62,782 bases of DNA from a virus: the IMG/VR virus record IMGVR_UViG_3300010938_000039, positions 1 through 62,782 of that record; one strand, given 5' to 3'. Positions 1,313 through 27,507 of the stretch are shown here, one piece after another. The number at the start of each line of letters is the position of its first letter. Positions within the stretch are counted from its first letter, which is position 1. Both the position numbers and the translations under genes were made by a program. The notes beneath the pieces are model-generated. The model was not told the origin of the DNA. It did not search any database and was given only the letters and a program-made list of their open reading frames with translations.

Positions 1313-2419
1313 GTGGAGGCATATGCACAATCCGCAATCGCATTGGCGATCCAGACTAGGCTTCCTGTCCTTCTTTGGGGTGGCCCCGGTACTGGCAAAA
1401 CGTCTTTCGTCAATCAGATTGCCAAGCATCTCGGTGTTCCGATTGAGACGATCATCGCTAGCATCCGTGAGCCTTCTGACTTCGCTGGCCTACCGGTTGT
1501 TCGTGATGATGGAGTTGTTTTTGAGCCACCGGCATGGGCAAAGCGTCTCGCGTCTCTAGATGGAGATGGGGGAATCCTCTTCATCGATGAGATTTCGACA
1601 ACTCCTCCTGCAGTGCAGGCTGCACTGTTGAGGGTCATCCATGAGGGGGTTGTCGGTGACATCACGCTCCCGAAGACCATCTCTAAGGTGGCGGCAGCCA
1701 ATCCGCCGGAGCAGGCGGCGGGGGGCTGGACGCTTGCCCCGCCTCTTGCGAACAGGTTCGTTCACTTCGACTGGACAACGTCTTATGAGCGATGGGCTGA
1801 TGGCGCTATCGATCGGTGGAAGAACGTGAATTACTACATCCCTGTCCTTCCTAAGGACTGGGAGGATCGTATCCCGGACGCTCTTTCTTTGGTGTCCGCA
1901 TATATCCGCCACCGACCGACCCAGCTCTACCAGCTTCCTCAGCACGACTCTGAGGCTGGTCGTGCATGGGCGTCTCCACGTACCTGGGAGATGGCCGCAA
2001 TCCTGATGGCCGCTGCGAATGCGGCTGGTGTGAACGATGATGTTCGCGTGACGCTCATCTCCGGTGCGGTCGGCTCTGCTGTGGCGATCGAGTTCATCAA
2101 TTGGTCGAATGACCTCGATCTACCGGACCCAGAGTGGTTGCTCGAGAACCCGACCAAGTATAAGGTTCCAGACAGGACCGATAGGGTCTATGCAGTCCTG
2201 TCTTCCGTGCTGGCCGCAGCTCTGACGAATCTCACGAGGGAGCGGTGGCTGGCTGTCTGGCATATCCTTGCTGAGACTGCTAAGGAGAAGGCCCCCGATA
2301 TCGCGGCTTTCGCCGCTAAGACGTTGGTGCAGAAGATTGATATGAACTCGAACCTGCCAATCCCGAAGAAGGAGCTTGCAGTCTTCACGCCGATTCTTAA
2401 GGAAGTGAACCTAATCTGA
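1313..2419 (+). CDS. MoxR-type AAA+ ATPase
   Basis: A 368-residue AAA+ ATPase. Walker A is GGPGTGKTS near residue 25 and Walker B is GILFIDEIS near residue 85, followed by the MoxR-like PPAVQAALLRVIHEG stretch. The GTG start is preceded by AAGGAGGG at good spacing. It couples by TGATG overlap to a VWA metallopeptidase-like gene. MoxR ATPases act as chaperones that remodel or insert metal into partners, usually VWA proteins encoded next door. The target here is unknown; it could be a phage structure or a host complex. Confidence 0.88.
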   Translation: MEAYAQSAIALAIQTRLPVLLWGGPGTGKTSFVNQIAKHLGVPIETIIASIREPSDFAGLPVVRDDGVVFEPPAWAKRLASLDGDGGILFIDEISTTPPAVQAALLRVIHEGVVGDITLPKTISKVAAANPPEQAAGGWTLAPPLANRFVHFDWTTSYERWADGAIDRWKNVNYYIPVLPKDWEDRIPDALSLVSAYIRHRPTQLYQLPQHDSEAGRAWASPRTWEMAAILMAAANAAGVNDDVRVTLISGAVGSAVAIEFINWSNDLDLPDPEWLLENPTKYKVPDRTDRVYAVLSSVLAAALTNLTRERWLAVWHILAETAKEKAPDIAAFAAKTLVQKIDMNSNLPIPKKELAVFTPILKEVNLI

Positions 2420-3609
2420 TGAAGGTAGAACGGATTGCAGCGGCCAGGCTCTTCCTGGCGAATCATCGTCCGTATCTCTCGGTGGCTCTTTGGTCGTTGA
2501 TGCCCAAACCCATCGAGGGGATGGGGACGTTCGCCGTGGATAAGTACTGGCGACTCTACTATGATCCCCAGCTGGATTGGGATGTTCAGACGACGGCGGC
2601 GGTCCTGTATCACGAGGTGTTCCATCTCCTGCGGGACCATGCCGGTCGTGCCAGTGAATCCCGAGATCCGACCATCTGGAACCTAGCGGGAGATTGCGAG
2701 ATTAACGATGATATCCGGGAAGAAGGGTTCTGGAACCTTCCAGAGAACTGTGTTTACCCGGACACCTTCGGGCTTGAAGATGGGAAGCTCGCGGAATATT
2801 ACTACGAGCAGCTCATCAAGAACGCGGTATTCGTTCAGGCCGAAGGGCCAGCACCTGGTGCCGGTCAGTGTGGCTCGGCAGCTGGTGGGCCGAGAAGGTC
2901 ATGGGAGGAATACGACGGTAGCGACAAGAAGATAGGGCAAGCGGAGGGGCGACTGATCGCTCGTAAGGTGGCTGAGGATATCCAGCATTACCGAGAAAGA
3001 GGGACAGTCCCGGCTGGTTGGGCGAGATGGGCTGAGGAGTTCCTTAACCCAAAGGTCGATTGGCGGAGAGAACTCCGTGCTCTCATCTTCAACTCGGTCG
3101 CCGATGTGGTCGGGAAGGTGGACTACACTTATCGTCGTCCGTCTCGCAGACAGTCCGCTTTCTCGGATGTCGTGATGCCGTCGATGACGGAACCGATGGT
3201 GAAGGTCGCGGTGATCATCGACACTTCTGGTTCCATGAATCAGGAGGATCTCAATGCGGCCTTGACAGAGGTGAAGGGTATCCTCGATGCCACAGGGGCT
3301 AGGGAGGGCGTTACGGTCTTGTCGGTCGATGCTGCCGTTCATTCCGTGCAGCGGGTGTTCAGTGCTCGTCAAGTGAAACTCGCTGGTGGAGGCGGGACGG
3401 ATATGCGTGTCGGCTTCGATGAGGTCGCTAGGTTGCGTCCACGACCTAACGTGCTCGTGGTGTTGAGTGACTTCTATACGCCCTGGCCGGATTCGCCCCC
3501 GAAGGGGCTCTCCAGGGTTATCGGGGTCTGCATCAATAGTGATATCGAGATTACGAATGTGCCATCTTGGCTCAAGGTAGTGAAGGTCGATACGAGGGGT
3601 GAGGGGTGA
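2419..3609 (+). CDS. VWA-like protein with metallopeptidase-like domain
   Basis: A 396-residue protein with two parts. The N-terminal half carries YHEVFHLLRDH (HExxH at residues 65-69) followed by WNLAGDCEIND, the signature of the predicted metallopeptidase domain found with VWA-like domains (COG3864 type). The C-terminal half is a VWA fold with a DTSGSMN MIDAS motif near residue 268 and a later GGGTDM. The ATG overlaps the MoxR stop, so the two are co-translated. MoxR/VWA pairs are known from bacteria. Whether the peptidase centre is active cannot be judged here. Confidence 0.85.
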   Translation: MKVERIAAARLFLANHRPYLSVALWSLMPKPIEGMGTFAVDKYWRLYYDPQLDWDVQTTAAVLYHEVFHLLRDHAGRASESRDPTIWNLAGDCEINDDIREEGFWNLPENCVYPDTFGLEDGKLAEYYYEQLIKNAVFVQAEGPAPGAGQCGSAAGGPRRSWEEYDGSDKKIGQAEGRLIARKVAEDIQHYRERGTVPAGWARWAEEFLNPKVDWRRELRALIFNSVADVVGKVDYTYRRPSRRQSAFSDVVMPSMTEPMVKVAVIIDTSGSMNQEDLNAALTEVKGILDATGAREGVTVLSVDAAVHSVQRVFSARQVKLAGGGGTDMRVGFDEVARLRPRPNVLVVLSDFYTPWPDSPPKGLSRVIGVCINSDIEITNVPSWLKVVKVDTRGEG

Positions 3610-3962
3610 TGCCGAAGATCCCAGAATCCCCTCCAACGGCTCCGACGTATCGGTATGCGAAGCCGAAGGGGCATAAACAGCAGAAGATTGATACCGCGAG
3701 GTTGCTTGCTATCATGTTCTCGTCTGAGATGGTCTTGCCTCGTAGTGGATCGAAGATCCACTGCGGTTACGGAGAACCACTTGTAACGCTTTGCGGTATC
3801 AAAAGGAACCTTAGAAGGGTGAACGAGCGGTTCATCTCATTGATATCGAATGCCGAGGGGCCGATCAGTTGGGCGGACCTTCCGAAGGTGTGGCAATGCG
3901 CTAGGTGTGCCGAGATCTTCAGGACCGTAAGTGAGGCGATAGGAGATTATGAAGATGTATAG
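3609..3962 (+). CDS. Conserved small protein with zinc-ribbon-like cysteines
   Basis: A 117-residue protein. The ATG at 3609 overlaps the VWA stop and a GTG one codon upstream (3606) is also possible. A basic N-terminus (KPKGHKQQK) precedes a core with H-C ... TLCG ... and WQCARC near the C-terminus, a spacing that fits a zinc site. No family recognised. It sits between the VWA gene and RNase H and is probably in the same transcript. Confidence 0.65.
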   Translation: MPKIPESPPTAPTYRYAKPKGHKQQKIDTARLLAIMFSSEMVLPRSGSKIHCGYGEPLVTLCGIKRNLRRVNERFISLISNAEGPISWADLPKVWQCARCAEIFRTVSEAIGDYEDV

Positions 3963-4362
3963 GGCAAGTTGTGATGGATCTTCGAAGGGCAATCCTGGTT
4001 CGGCAGGAATCGGAATTGTCATTTTCAATGACAAAAATGAGGTGGTGAAAAAGATAAGTGAACACATAGGTGTAGCCACGAATAACGAAGCAGAATATCA
4101 TGCGGTGTTGCGTGGGATTTGCGAGGCAAAAGAACTTGGTGCTGACATGGTTATAATCCAGTCAGATAGTAAACTGGTAATCCATCAGATGACTGGCGAG
4201 TATCGGTCGAAAGCTCCGAACCTATGGAAGATTAGGTCGAAGATCCTCTTGGAGATGGAAGATATAGATGTGATTTTCAAGCATATCCCTAGAGAGCAGA
4301 ATGAGCTCGCTGATACGCTTGCCAAACAGGGGGCAGCAGATGGAAAAGGAACGAGACACTGA
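3949..4362 (+). CDS. Ribonuclease HI-like protein
   Basis: A 137-residue RNase H fold protein. The four expected acidic residues are in their motifs: D in CDGSSKGNPG, E in NNEAEY, D in QSDSKLV and D in ELADTLAKQG. These match the RNase HI/reverse-transcriptase-like family that cleaves RNA in RNA:DNA hybrids. A role in primer removal or R-loop clearing is inferred. Two ATGs (3949, 3955) are possible; the second has better spacing from AGGAG. The gene overlaps the preceding one by 14 bp. Confidence 0.9.
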   Translation: MKMYRASCDGSSKGNPGSAGIGIVIFNDKNEVVKKISEHIGVATNNEAEYHAVLRGICEAKELGADMVIIQSDSKLVIHQMTGEYRSKAPNLWKIRSKILLEMEDIDVIFKHIPREQNELADTLAKQGAADGKGTRH

Positions 4363-4798
4363 TACAGGCAGATCCCTTGATGGTGTTGATGTCACGCTTA
4401 TGGCTTTAGAGGGCGATGACCGCCTTCTTCAGACCATGCAAGATGACATCTATCCAGTCATGGTATTCATGACGAGATATAGCGGTGTCTACGAAGGAGA
4501 TAGGTGGGCGGCGATATGCGCATGGGAGATACCGGAGGAAGCGCATGGGAGTGATATCGAATGCGCGGAATGGTGGGCACAGGTAGGAGATAAGTGGGCA
4601 GGGGTTGGGCCAACGCCGAATTCCGCCGTGCTTGAACTATACAAGAAGATAAAAAAGAGATACTCCGAAGATCCTTTGAGCGAGCACTGGCCTATACCCA
4701 CATTCAAAATGGCCGATGCATTCAGATTTGATTGTGAGTCTTTCAGGAACGAAACTCTGAACAGGATGGACGAAAGGGATTACTTCGATGACCATTGA
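4340..4798 (+). CDS. Hypothetical protein
   Basis: A 152-residue protein when started at ATG 4340, behind AGGGGGC; the open frame extends to 4301, but the extra residues look non-native. It is acidic with several Trp. The pattern WAAICAWEIPEEAHGSD...AEWWAQVGDKWAG is not one I recognise. It overlaps RNase H upstream and the phosphatase downstream, so it is translated in the same operon. Confidence 0.65.
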   Translation: MEKERDTDTGRSLDGVDVTLMALEGDDRLLQTMQDDIYPVMVFMTRYSGVYEGDRWAAICAWEIPEEAHGSDIECAEWWAQVGDKWAGVGPTPNSAVLELYKKIKKRYSEDPLSEHWPIPTFKMADAFRFDCESFRNETLNRMDERDYFDDH

Positions 4799-5258
4799 GG
4801 TAGTAGAAGTTGTACCGCATCTGTGGCAGGGCCCTCATCCCAATCCAGAAGATGAGGAGATTATGAGGTGGGATCTAGTCGTCGGTGCCGCAGAAGAGGC
4901 GATGCAGCCCATCTATAAGGTGAACTGGCTTTACCTGCCGCTCAGGGATTCGGACGAAGAATATCAGAATGTCAGGATGATGATGGTGGCAAGAAGAACT
5001 GCCGCCTTTATAGCTGATCTTCTCGAAGATGGCGCTGATGTGTTCGTATTCTGCGGAGCAGGGCTGAATAGGAGTGGATTGATAGTAGCAAGAACTCTGA
5101 TGTTCAGAGGATTCTCTCCGATAGAATCGATACAGGAGGTTCGAAGAGCAAGGGGTTCGATGGCCCTTTCGAATGGTGGTTTCGTCACTTGGTTGATGGC
5201 CGAAGGCGGTATGGCAGCGTCGGATATGCTCTTGTCCGAAATAATCACTCAAGAGTGA
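4788..5258 (+). CDS. Dual-specificity/tyrosine phosphatase-like protein
   Basis: A 156-residue protein with the C-x5-R loop of cysteine phosphatases: FCGAGLNRSG, with Cys89 and Arg95. LPLRDSD upstream (Asp near 54) could supply the general acid. Length and layout match small dual-specificity phosphatases. It may dephosphorylate a host or phage protein, or a nucleotide or RNA 5' end; the substrate is unknown. The ATG overlaps the preceding gene. Confidence 0.85.
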   Translation: MTIEVVEVVPHLWQGPHPNPEDEEIMRWDLVVGAAEEAMQPIYKVNWLYLPLRDSDEEYQNVRMMMVARRTAAFIADLLEDGADVFVFCGAGLNRSGLIVARTLMFRGFSPIESIQEVRRARGSMALSNGGFVTWLMAEGGMAASDMLLSEIITQE

Positions 5259-5784: not shown

Positions 5785-6513
5785 GTGGAAGTCTTGAAGG
5801 ACGTGGAGCACTACACTTCTTTCGACGACTTCGCGAAGGACTCATGGAAGGCAGCCGTAGATAGTCTGATCTACGGTTGTGAACTTTCTTTGGAGGAGTA
5901 CCGTGATCGACTCTGGAACGAGGTCGTTCTCGTCGGCAAGCTCCCCACGGTCGAGGAGCTCGACTTCGTCAAGTCCTTCAAGAACCTGTCATGGTCGTAC
6001 CAGTTCCCATACGTGTTCGTGACTACGAAGTCGCTCGTTACGGAGAAGCGGTACTACTACCATCAGCGCAGACTCGGGAAGTTCACCATCGCCATGAGCG
6101 TGCCGAACAACGCCATATCACTCTCGGAGTGGTCGTGGGCGCCGCATCTCCTCGTCTTCCCGGCAGGAGACAACTTCATGCTGGGCGATGGAGTGCTGAT
6201 CTATCATCCGCACGTCGGAAGTGATGGCGAGATCTGTCTCGGGAACTACAAGTACCTCATCCAAAACTTCGTCGCGAATATGGAGTGGGCATCGACCATC
6301 GATGCAATCATTCACTGCCTGATGAACCCGAATCTAGAAGATGAGGTGGGTCGTCGAATAGTGATGTGGCCATACAAGAACGGGAGTCCTCCTAAAGGGG
6401 TGTGTCCCAAGTGCCTCAATAGGAAGGAATACTGCGAGTGTTGTCCCAACTGTCATGAGCTAGGTTGCATCTGTTGCATCGATTGCGACTCATACCCATG
6501 TCGGTGTGAGTAG
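5785..6513 (+). CDS. E2-like ubiquitin-conjugating-fold protein with Cys-rich tail (copy A)
   Basis: A 242-residue protein from GTG 5785, behind GGAAGGGG; the frame extends to 5635 but crosses the promoter. Residues about 95-195 carry the E2 signature: HPHVGSDGEICLG places Cys151 ten residues after His141, exactly as in HPN...C of eukaryotic E2s, followed by W168 and MNPNLEDE, which match the conserved helix and PNPEDP region. The last 40 residues contain about a dozen cysteines (CPKC, CECCPNC, CICCIDC, CRC), probably zinc sites that could act like a built-in RING. It would accept the activated Ubl from the E1-like enzyme downstream and transfer it to targets. Family assignment is by motif only. 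Confidence 0.8.
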   Translation: MEVLKDVEHYTSFDDFAKDSWKAAVDSLIYGCELSLEEYRDRLWNEVVLVGKLPTVEELDFVKSFKNLSWSYQFPYVFVTTKSLVTEKRYYYHQRRLGKFTIAMSVPNNAISLSEWSWAPHLLVFPAGDNFMLGDGVLIYHPHVGSDGEICLGNYKYLIQNFVANMEWASTIDAIIHCLMNPNLEDEVGRRIVMWPYKNGSPPKGVCPKCLNRKEYCECCPNCHELGCICCIDCDSYPCRCE

Positions 6514-6530
6514 TGGGAGGGGGTGAAGGC

Positions 6531-7748
6531 ATGGTAACACTCATCTACACAGGTTTAGACGGCGAAGTCCATCGCGTGGAGAATGACAACAGCATCCCAA
6601 CGTTCTTGGACTATCTCTCCGCCTACTTCTGGAGTGTGATCGGTGAGAGCCACAAGCTCATCGACGAATACTCGCGGCAGTTAGAGTCGCTCCGTCTCGA
6701 CGATTTCGAGACAGAGGAAGGATACCAACTCGAACAGAATCGACTGAAGCATGGCATCAGATACAACCAGGAACACGCCAACTCGATGCTCGAGTGGATG
6801 TCTAAGGTCACGAACCGGGAGAAGTTCAGACATGAGCTGAGCATCATCAAGAAGATTGACGGAGTCGCCAACGTCTACCTGTCACTCGACAGCACCATCG
6901 AGAAGTGGGACGATTCGATCTTCCCTGACGCAGAACACTACATCAACCGTCGGCATCAGTACGTCGTAGTGGAGACGGAGGACCTCCTCACTCCGCCGAT
7001 GGGGGCTCGGTTCTTGCCGAAGAATCTCGGGAGTTTCGTCATCGTCTTGCCGTTGGCCCACTTCGATACCTACGTGCTTCCGCTTTCTGGAAACTATGTG
7101 TATGACGACCTCATGCACTTCCATCCTCATATCAGTGAAACCGGCAGCCCTTGTATGGGGAACATCTCTCATGCGCTTCCGCCACTCATCGAGTCGGGTG
7201 AGGTCGCTGCGGCGGTGCAGCTCATGATCGAGTTCCTCACGAACCCGAATCCAGATGATGACTGGGGGAAGGCGATCAACCTATGGCCGTACATCGACGG
7301 GTACATCCCGGATGTCTGCGAACAGTGCTGGCATGAGGATGACGACTGCGAGTGTTGCCCGAACTGTGGGTTGTACGAATGCGAGTGTTGTATCCAGTGC
7401 GGCAACTACCCCTGCACGTGTTGCCCGGACTGCGGGGAAGATCCCTGCACTTGTCTTTGGCCGTGGGATGACGGTGTAGGATGTGAGTTCTGTGCAGATT
7501 CCGGCAGAGAGCCGTGCGATGACGGGAAGGGCAAGGGCGACTACAACCTGAAGTGTCCACAAGTAAGTAAGTATCGGTATCCCGATGACGAACCCTGGCC
7601 GTTCAGTGAGGATCGGCCCGGCTGCGAGTTCTGTGCGAGTATTGCCAAGAAGGCGAATCTGGAAGTGTCGGTAACGCCGTGTTACAATGGTCTTGGCCGT
7701 GGCTACTTCAACTACTACTGCTACTACGCGGTTCGGTACTCGGGCTGA
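6531..7748 (+). CDS. E2-like protein with long Cys-rich tail (copy B)
   Basis: A 405-residue paralogue of copy A, from ATG 6531 behind GGGAGGGGG; GTG 6513 is an alternative. It has an extra charged helical N-terminal region of about 120 residues. The E2-like core follows: HPHISETGSPCMG with His198 and Cys208, again ten apart, then LTNPNPDDD. After residue 262 comes a dense Cys array (CEQC, CECCPNCG, CECCIQCG, CTCCPDCG) and two more CEFC modules, enough for several zinc ions. A 17-bp gap separates it from copy A. Two different E2s in one operon may serve different targets, or one may act mainly as a scaffold or E3. Confidence 0.78.
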   Translation: MVTLIYTGLDGEVHRVENDNSIPTFLDYLSAYFWSVIGESHKLIDEYSRQLESLRLDDFETEEGYQLEQNRLKHGIRYNQEHANSMLEWMSKVTNREKFRHELSIIKKIDGVANVYLSLDSTIEKWDDSIFPDAEHYINRRHQYVVVETEDLLTPPMGARFLPKNLGSFVIVLPLAHFDTYVLPLSGNYVYDDLMHFHPHISETGSPCMGNISHALPPLIESGEVAAAVQLMIEFLTNPNPDDDWGKAINLWPYIDGYIPDVCEQCWHEDDDCECCPNCGLYECECCIQCGNYPCTCCPDCGEDPCTCLWPWDDGVGCEFCADSGREPCDDGKGKGDYNLKCPQVSKYRYPDDEPWPFSEDRPGCEFCASIAKKANLEVSVTPCYNGLGRGYFNYYCYYAVRYSG

Positions 7749-7768: not shown

Positions 7769-8557
7769 GTGACTGATAACCCCACCGCCTACTTCACGCC
7801 CTACGCATGGGCGAAGTTGTGGGCATACGTTCGGAACGCGACTGCAGAGATTGCCGGTATGGGGATCGTGGAGGTAGTGGATAACGACTACCTCCTGGTT
7901 TCCGATGTGTTCATCGTGGAGCAGGAGGCATCGGCAGCTCATGCCGACTTCGATGTCGAGGGAGTGGCGAGGTTCATGGAGGAACTCATCGCCGCCGGTC
8001 GTGAGGATGACATCCCGAAGATGAAGTTGTGGTGGCACTCTCACGGCACCCTCGAAGCCTACTTCAGCTCCAGGGACACGCAGACGATCGATGAGTGGAA
8101 GAACACTTCTTACCTCATCTCCATCGTCTGCAACAAGAAGAACCGTTACTCGGCTCGACTCGATCTGTGGAGTCCAATCAGGATGGCCACTGATGTGGAT
8201 GTCGAGATCTTCTCGGTGATCCCAGAGGAGGAGATCGACTCCATCAAGAAGGAGATTGCCGAGAAAGTGAAGACACCGAAGATCACTTCCGGCAAGGTCT
8301 ACTACACCGGGTACACAGGTGGAACCGATTACCTAGTGAAGTCCTTGTCTCGCAAGGAGTTGAAGAAGAAGGAGAAGGGGCATCATCATGATGAGCCCGA
8401 CATGACCTATGATGAATACATCGAGCACCTCATGAGTGACAAGTGTTGCTCGGACATGGGGTGCTGCGGACGGATGGACTACTGGGACCGGAAGTTCTTC
8501 GGAGAGGACTTCGACGACATCGAGGTCATCGGCGAAGACACCGATACCGAGCACTAA
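7769..8557 (+). CDS. JAB/MPN+ (JAMM) metalloprotease, probable Ubl-removing enzyme
   Basis: A 262-residue protein from GTG behind AAAGGAGG. It has the complete JAMM signature: Glu27 in TAEIAGMG, then WWHSHG (His90, His92) and Asp103 exactly ten residues after the second His. All zinc ligands and the catalytic Glu are present, so it should be active. In ubiquitin-like systems such enzymes cleave the Ubl from targets or process its C-terminus. The Ubl here already ends in Gly, so deconjugation is more likely. The C-terminal 60 residues hold a His/Cys cluster (GHHHD, DKCCSDMGCCG) that may bind metal. Confidence 0.88.
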   Translation: MTDNPTAYFTPYAWAKLWAYVRNATAEIAGMGIVEVVDNDYLLVSDVFIVEQEASAAHADFDVEGVARFMEELIAAGREDDIPKMKLWWHSHGTLEAYFSSRDTQTIDEWKNTSYLISIVCNKKNRYSARLDLWSPIRMATDVDVEIFSVIPEEEIDSIKKEIAEKVKTPKITSGKVYYTGYTGGTDYLVKSLSRKELKKKEKGHHHDEPDMTYDEYIEHLMSDKCCSDMGCCGRMDYWDRKFFGEDFDDIEVIGEDTDTEH

Positions 8558-8600: not shown

Positions 8601-9272
8601 ATGACGGAGATCGACTACTGGCGTCAACTCGACCTGATCTCACCGAACGAACTCCGGGATGCTTTCGTGACCATCATCGGAGTCGGTGGCATCGGCTCTC
8701 CGACTGCACTGGCTCTTGCGAAGATGGGGGTTCCCGAGATCGAAGTGTGGGATGCAGACACAGTCGAGAACCACAACCTGCCGGTGCAGTTGTATCGCAA
8801 GAGTGATATCGGAAGGAAGAAGGTCCATGCTCTAGCCGATGTGCTGGCTGAGTTCACTGGTGCAGTGGTTCATCCGGTGGATAGGAAGTTCACTAGGAAC
8901 GATTCTTTCTCGAAGAAGGGGATCGTCATCTCTACAGTCGATTCCATGTCTGCGAGGAAGAACATCTGGTACGCAGTCAAGAGGAACAAGAACCTGGTGG
9001 ACACTTACATCGACGCCAGGATGGGGCTAGAAGTGGGGTGGGTGCAAGTCGTAAACCCGCTTTCAGCTCAAGATGTAACAAGATATTCTAAGACATTGTA
9101 CAGTGACGAGGATGCGGTAGATTTGCCTTGTACGGCCCGCGCTGTCTGGTACAATGAGGTTTGTATCGCAGCCGTCATCGGAAGGATAGTGAGAGGGGTG
9201 ATCAAACGGCAGCCGGTAGACAGAGAAGTCACTTTCGATCTGAACATGATGCTCTTCACCACATCCCAGTGA
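8601..9272 (+). CDS. E1-like (ThiF/MoeB family) adenylating enzyme
   Basis: A 223-residue Rossmann-type protein from ATG 8601, behind AGGAAAGGAAG. It shows the ThiF/E1 nucleotide motif GVGGIGS (27-33), DADTVENHNL (51-60) with the Asp and Asn/Arg region that positions ATP, STVDS (111-115), and Cys177 in DLPCTAR as a candidate catalytic cysteine. It is a minimal single-domain E1. It would adenylate the C-terminal Gly of the Ubl encoded next and pass it to an E2-like cysteine. The gap to the JAMM gene is 43 bp. Confidence 0.88.
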   Translation: MTEIDYWRQLDLISPNELRDAFVTIIGVGGIGSPTALALAKMGVPEIEVWDADTVENHNLPVQLYRKSDIGRKKVHALADVLAEFTGAVVHPVDRKFTRNDSFSKKGIVISTVDSMSARKNIWYAVKRNKNLVDTYIDARMGLEVGWVQVVNPLSAQDVTRYSKTLYSDEDAVDLPCTARAVWYNEVCIAAVIGRIVRGVIKRQPVDREVTFDLNMMLFTTSQ

Positions 9273-9310: not shown

Positions 9311-9532
9311 GTGGTCAAGGTTGCTATCTTCGGCTCTGACGTTCCGGTCAAGGTCGTCGAGGCTGGCGCTTTGAAGTCGGTCCTGGAGCGAGTCTTCGAC
9401 AACCGCCGTTCCGCTGAGGAGGCCATCGAGGGGTACACGGTGCGACTCAACGGCACCACCGTTGACGATCTCGGGACGTACGTCCCGGAGGAGTCGCTCG
9501 TCACCCTCGTGCCTGAGGTGAAGGCGGGCTAA
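9311..9532 (+). CDS. Ubiquitin-like (beta-grasp, ThiS/MoaD-like) modifier
   Basis: A 73-residue protein from GTG behind a near-perfect AAAGGAGGTG. Its size and pattern fit a beta-grasp fold: strand VKVAIFG, strand VPVKVVE, a helix around residues 19-31, then YTVRLNGTTVDDLG and a final SLVTLVPEV strand. The chain ends in Ala-Gly with nothing after it, so the C-terminal Gly is ready for adenylation without processing. Its place as the last gene behind an E1-like enzyme, in an operon with E2-like and JAMM proteins, makes it the probable tag. ThiS/MoaD-type sulfur carrying is the main alternative, but that would not need E2s. Confidence 0.82.
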   Translation: MVKVAIFGSDVPVKVVEAGALKSVLERVFDNRRSAEEAIEGYTVRLNGTTVDDLGTYVPEESLVTLVPEVKAG

Positions 9533-27048: not shown

Positions 27049-27236
27049 GGTGCAGGCATTGCGGTGCAACACAGATGATATCCGCCCGATACTGCCTCAT
27101 CAACACCTGGCCTAGGTGCCACGACGAGGCGATGCATCTAGAGGACACCACCGCCGACATCGGGCAGATCATCAACGACATCACCCGCGTATCTTGGAGG
27201 ATCTGGCGTGGAGAGCGCGATAAGAAGAAAAAGTGA
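27003..27236 (+). CDS. Small zinc-finger protein
   Basis: A 77-residue protein overlapping the end of the HNH gene. RCRHCGAT and a later CLINTWPRCHDEAMH form a zinc site. The C-terminus is basic (RGERDKKKK). Overlaps the WhiB-like gene. Confidence 0.6.
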   Translation: MATTTKKNDAPDTLVRCRHCGATQMISARYCLINTWPRCHDEAMHLEDTTADIGQIINDITRVSWRIWRGERDKKKK

Positions 27237-27507
27237 TGAATGGAAGATATCTGCGAAGTGCAGGGAGTACGACCCGGAATGGTGGTTCGAAGATGCATCG
27301 CCAGAGGAGAACAGCCGCGCCATCTGGATATGCCTGAACGAGTGTTCTGTGAAGGACACCTGCCTCGAGTACGCCGTGACCCACATGATCGAGCATGGCA
27401 TCTGGGGTGGGCTTCGAGCCCATGCGAGGCGGAAGTGGCAGGAGTTCAGCGGGTTCGTGCCGACCGAGGAGCGTAGGCCCATCATCATCGACACCAGGAA
27501 GCTCTGA
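27208..27507 (+). CDS. WhiB-like iron-sulfur transcription factor
   Basis: A 99-residue WhiB-family protein from GTG behind TTGGAGG. It has Cys18, Cys42, Cys46 and Cys52 for a 4Fe-4S cluster, the GIWGG turn (64-68) and a basic segment (RAHARRKW) for DNA binding. The middle pair is C-x3-C where most WhiB proteins have C-x2-C. WhiB proteins bind the host's primary sigma factor, so this may redirect host transcription. Coupled by TGATG to the next gene. Confidence 0.88.
   Translation: MESAIRRKSDEWKISAKCREYDPEWWFEDASPEENSRAIWICLNECSVKDTCLEYAVTHMIEHGIWGGLRAHARRKWQEFSGFVPTEERRPIIIDTRKL

Follow-up and report, generated by a model that had tools for sequence, protein, structure and literature searches.

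Two adjacent genes in a phage genome encode E2-like proteins that end in dense cysteine arrays, which raises the question of whether the phage carries its own ubiquitin-like protein (Ubl) conjugation pathway and what the tails would do in it. The genes lie in the IMG/VR virus record IMGVR_UViG_3300010938_000039, and all 62,782 bases of this stretch were analysed (the window). By its gene content, for example a 2013-aa protein read as a tape measure, the record is from a tailed phage. A WhiB-like protein was read from the sequence at 27208-27507 and suggests an actinobacterial host.

On balance, we consider it probable that the operon is a complete phage Ubl-conjugation cascade and that the E2 tails are zinc-binding docking arms with part of the role of an E3. 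At the sequence level, this reading is supported by the gene set, the active-site residues, the periodicity of the tails and the recurrence of the operon across dozens of phages.

The five-gene operon

The operon had the gene order E2a, E2b, JAB peptidase, E1/ThiF and ubiquitin-like protein. Its features were as follows.

5785..6513, + strand: E2a, E2-like protein with a Cys tail, 242 aa; GTG start behind GGAAGGGGG
6205..6237, + strand: E2a active site HPH-VGSDGEI-C (H141, H143, C151), the Cys aligned with the E2 Cys
6403..6507, + strand: E2a tail, three tandem C-x2-C-x4(6)-C-x-C units, C207-C241
6531..7748, + strand: E2b, E2-like protein with a longer Cys tail, 405 aa; ATG start behind GGAGGGGG
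6591..6851, + strand: E2b N-terminal helices, residues 21-107; AlphaFold2 block, pLDDT 73-96
6960..7289, + strand: E2b E2 core, residues 144-253, modelled at good confidence
7122..7154, + strand: E2b active site HPH-ISETGSP-C (H198, H200, C208)
7317..7454, + strand: E2b tail, four tandem C-x2-C-x4(6)-C-x-C units, C263-C308, period 11
7482..7721, + strand: E2b, two further GCEFCA-type four-Cys modules, C318-C342 and C365-C397, placed by the Cys positions in the sequence
7769..8557, + strand: JAB/JAMM metallopeptidase, HSH-x7-SxxD; Prok-JAB E 5.7e-6, best PDB matches RPN11
8601..9272, + strand: E1/ThiF adenylating enzyme, 223 aa; ThiF E 3e-22
9311..9532, + strand: ubiquitin-like protein, 73 aa, C-terminus VKAG

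Taken singly, the E2-like proteins showed weak similarity to E2 enzymes. E2a matched UQ_con at E 0.0056, below the Pfam cut-off, and E2b alone gave no UQ_con match in the Pfam search; PHROGs, PADLOC and NCBIfam named no family for either protein and returned only stray weak matches. A structure search with the whole E2b model gave matches dominated by the N-terminal helices rather than by the core. A profile of 30 E2 cores was searched against the PDB, and its best 60 matches were all E2 enzymes or E2 fusions (E 8.9e-4), with an alignment that covered HPN, the catalytic Cys (Cys on Cys) and NPDD. This profile search provides the main evidence for regarding E2a and E2b as E2 proteins, as an earlier note on this DNA had proposed.

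The same note described a spacing of ten residues from His to Cys, which was found in both proteins (H141-C151 in E2a and H198-C208 in E2b) within the motif HPH-x7-C. The PNxxDD segment that it assigned to both copies was exact in E2b (PNPDDD), while E2a reads PNLEDE. Among the 30 cores, C69 and G71 (C-x-G) were invariant and the upstream His was present in 22; the Asn of HPN, eight residues before the Cys, was not kept and was His (H61) in 28 cores and Tyr in 2. Known bacterial E2-like families likewise vary at the HPN motif. The proposed catalytic residue C208 was the only Cys of E2b ahead of its tail. The two copies proved to be paralogs with 33% identity (E 2e-28); since the alignment spanned both the E2 core and the Cys tail, the tail belongs to the duplicated unit. 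The helical N-terminus noted earlier for E2b was also predicted by AlphaFold (block pLDDT about 73-96).

The zinc ligands of the JAB protein were retained in an HxHx7SxxD site, present as HSHGTLEAYFSSRD, and HSHx7SxxD was found in nearly all loci of the family. Cys177 of the E1 (codon 9129-9131) was invariant in E1 alignments and probably has the thioester role. The window Ubl has the C-terminal Gly for activation (VKAG). The 73-aa protein received no name from the sequence libraries searched (Pfam, PHROGs, PADLOC and NCBIfam). Its predicted model had a pLDDT of 89.5 and matched MoaD, CysO, SAMP1, Urm1 and ubiquitin best in the PDB, and a profile of its relatives matched SAMP2 at E 8e-5. It is thus the likely modifier, with a predicted MoaD/ubiquitin beta-grasp fold that, like the helical arm of E2b, comes from a model.

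The fold matches also bear on a sulfur-carrier pathway, for which the mycobacterial CysO-Mec+ system is the model. The beta-grasp protein would then be of the MoaD/ThiS/CysO type and be processed by the E1 and JAB proteins, and the E2-like proteins would be inactive scaffolds. Although CysO, MoaD, SAMP1 and Urm1 are the closest folds of the Ubl model and the E1 resembles ThiF/MoeB, an E2 with an invariant Cys stood in the operon at 62 distinct loci, and fusions of several Ubl domains (polyUbl) are better explained by modifier processing. In addition, none of rhodanese, CysM, MoaE and ThiG was seen beside the operon in the window gene list. We regard a sulfur-carrier pathway as improbable and read the operon as a conjugation cascade.

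The cysteine tails

The dense Cys array noted earlier was borne out by counting: E2a had 12 Cys in its last 36 residues (p 1e-14) and E2b had 24 in its last 143 (p 4e-20), against a background of 1.2% Cys in the other window proteins. The two tails were the most Cys-dense places of the predicted proteome. In E2b, four C-x2-C-x(4-6)-C-x-C units were matched by none of 5000 shuffles of the same tail, and in E2a three units were reached by 48 of 5000. The earlier note ascribed additional modules to copy B; beyond its four tandem units, E2b had two GCEFCA-type four-Cys modules. Regular Cys spacing and high Cys density point to a zinc-type tail on both E2s.

The description of the tails as RING-like was not supported. 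Neither tail fitted the C3HC4 order or a relaxed Cys/His cross-brace, no Pfam zinc-finger family matched the window tails even at E 1, and AlphaFold gave the tails a pLDDT below 50 with no confident fold. A RING assignment of the window tails was rejected on the missing RING order, and the tails were read as tandem four-Cys units. Since they fit neither a RING nor a Pfam zinc family and are modelled at such low confidence, we infer zinc binding from the Cys spacing alone; on this basis the tails probably bind zinc. Conjugation and target choice could plausibly be combined within one chain, as the earlier note suggested.

The family across IMG/VR

The family came into view through an E1 profile, with which two IMG/VR scans yielded 62 distinct loci with the E2 type of E2a and E2b, the window included. 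A JAB gene was adjacent in 61 of these loci, and a ubiquitin-like protein was detected in 49, with C-termini mostly KGN or KGG. Ten loci had two E2s, a recurrence with which a different target for E2b, as proposed earlier, is possible. Tandem polyUbl forms were found in 12 loci. The phage polyUbl proteins (L012, L033, L031, L034, L036 and others) had two or three Ubl domains, usually joined at KGN/KGG, and these junctions look as if they were JAB cleavage points.

In tblastn, none of 50,697 phage records matched E2a, E2b or the E2 of L028. The window E1 had no match among plasmids, and IMG/VR scans with E2b alone, with a two-sequence alignment and with the exact HPH..C.GN DNA pattern found nothing. 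A DNA pattern scan for pairs of C-x2-C-x4-C-x-C gave, among the matches listed, mostly low-complexity or off-frame sequences. At least two real CxxCxxYPCxC arrays, similar to the window tail, occurred in unrelated non-E2 proteins (L261 and L301); one lies in an open frame of 2402 aa from a Defluviitaleaceae bacterium and the other in a short open frame. On an 84.7-kb contig (L006), which starts 13 bases before the E1, positions 1-942 encode an E1 with 98% identity and a Ubl identical to that of the window. E2a, E2b, the JAB protein and MoxR were not found in this record, although it has a 917-aa window protein at 97%. Variation in the upstream half, or simply its loss at the contig end, may account for this.

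Zinc-type tails were found in 11 of the 62 loci. They were carried by 13 of 72 E2 ORFs versus 1.7% of comparison segments, which include non-coding reading frames. The tail label, for which any CxxC in the tail counted, was scattered over the E1 tree and needed nine changes, at least five of them forced by supported branches, which indicates that tails were gained or lost several times. The basic chemistry does not require a tail, given that most relatives have none. L018, among the nearest relatives by E1 path, had the same kind of Cys unit, CRDCWELDYVCDC.

In L025, one of about ten tails examined, a C3HC4-spaced stretch behind the E2 core was matched by 22 of 20,000 shuffles; the family thus includes an E2 that is joined to a possible RING within a single chain. 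The idea of a RING was therefore right in kind for the family, but not for the window. The L359 tail also fitted C3HC4-type spacing by pattern. In L016, L337 and L359, Cys-rich tails likewise followed the E2 core; the L359 E2 (3906-5039) had 35 Cys in its tail and the L337 E2 (3093-4997) had 22, with repeated CxxC pairs. The L025 stretch and these other dense tails give some weight to the view that the window tails are true RING-type domains with unusual spacing, which would activate the E2 in cis as an E2-E3 in one chain. However, the window tails failed both the RING and the relaxed cross-brace patterns and had no Pfam RING match, and a cross-brace would need units that are longer and less contiguous; we hold this view to be very improbable.

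A further explanation accepts Ubl conjugation as real and takes the Cys tails as structural, redox-active or metal-storage appendages rather than specificity modules. The missing match to any known zinc-finger family, the tail pLDDT below 50, the occurrence of CxxCxxYPCxC arrays outside E2 proteins, as in L261 and L301, and the many tail-less relatives would all suit such appendages. Unit count and spacing were, however, regular and kept between the paralogs E2a and E2b, and the repeated rise of diverse zinc-type tails behind the E2 core fits selection for a module at that place. We therefore consider appendages rather unlikely and retain the docking arms as the preferred reading. A bolder extension, which is possible but doubtful, is that phage zinc modules were repeatedly fused to E2s and made single-chain E2-E3s that, in the infected cell, retarget the phage Ubl tag to proteins of the host or of the phage. 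The modules concerned would be the tandem four-Cys units of the window, the C3HC4-spaced stretch of L025 and the very Cys-rich tails of L337 and L359.

Known systems and a proposed pathway

Operons with Ub, E1, E2 and JAB genes are known in bacteria (rows 6a-6e of Iyer et al. 2006, including the PRTRC-type row 6d; PMC1779556). They have in common with the window a Ub-like protein, a JAB protein, a stand-alone E1 and an E2-like protein, and polyUbl forms like those of the phage relatives were already known in row 6e. The window differs in its phage genome, its two E2s and the Cys-tandem tails on them. PRTRC membership was considered and rejected: the window reached 57 bits for PRTRC_ThiF against a cut-off of 145 and 13 bits for PRTRC_A against 102, and the classical upstream His, absent from the row 6d E2 (PMC1779556), is kept in the window E2s.

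BilABCD, an ISG15-like anti-phage operon of Ubl, E2, JAB and E1 (reviewed in PMC11354881), has the same four functions as the window, but it is a host defence, whereas the window operon is phage-encoded. BilD combines a pair of adenylation domains with a Cys domain (PMC11354881), whereas the window E1 has 223 aa; BilA is a tandem Ubl, whereas the window Ubl is a single domain of 73 aa. Given these differences and only a weak BilD match, membership in BilABCD was rejected. In Caldiarchaeum, a Ub/E1/E2/small-RING cascade has been described (PMC5654768). Both it and the window have a compact prokaryotic cascade, and a zinc protein acts as the E3 in Caldiarchaeum; the RING there is a separate protein (PMC5654768), whereas in the window the Cys module forms part of the E2 chain and is no RING.

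A cluster in crAss-like and Flavobacterium phages (Ub, HSH..C.G protein, JAB and ThiF) also has the same four functions. Its E1 is related to the window E1 (29-34%), as is its JAB protein, but the surroundings of the active site differ in its E2-like protein, which gave only a marginal profile match to the window E2s (probability 34%). Cys tails like those of the window were not seen in the three E2-like proteins examined from these phages. In L003, L004 and L005, which belong to these phages, the cluster has no annotation beyond thiamine biosynthesis or hypothetical. In the open-access literature, no account of E2s with zinc tails in phages was found; a prior description elsewhere is possible. 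The features that appear to set the window apart from known operons are that it is phage-borne, has paired E2s and has tandem Cys units fused to them.

The proposed pathway can be outlined as follows. The E1 (ThiF) would adenylate the C-terminal Gly of the 73-aa beta-grasp protein, which would then probably be held as a thioester on Cys177 and passed to C151 of E2a or C208 of E2b. The E2s would transfer the modifier to target proteins, and the JAB peptidase would take it off again. The Cys tails most likely fold around zinc, with one ion per C-x2-C-x4-C-x-C unit; three ions would be expected in E2a and four in E2b, where two C4 sites are possible in addition. The tails would serve as fused docking arms for substrate, E1 or nucleic acid and do part of the job of an E3 in one chain. 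The two E2s differ in N-terminus and tail and probably act on separate targets or at separate steps. We infer the conjugation chemistry, the zinc, the targets and the benefit to the phage.

Bacterial Ubl conjugation is best known as a host defence against phages. The presence of a full cascade at 62 or more distinct loci of uncultured viruses suggests that Ubl chemistry also serves the phages' own ends. The optional fused zinc tails offer natural pairs of tailed and tail-less E2s for studying target choice without a separate E3, and such pairs bear on how target choice was first built into Ubl systems.

Several relatives have genes near the operon that, judged from their sequence, resemble replication or early genes (helicase-like ones in 10 loci and PhoH-like ones in 9), and a primase and a uracil-DNA glycosylase were found near the cluster in crAss-like phages. 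Such neighbours point to action inside the infected cell and not in the virion. In the window, a protein with a CX5R phosphatase signature (FCGAGLNRSG) was encoded at 4788-5258, two genes upstream of the E2s. A MoxR-like ATPase and a DUF2201/VWA metallopeptidase formed a pair at 1313-3609, and a similar MoxR/VWA pair lay beside the operon in L010 (10024-12941).
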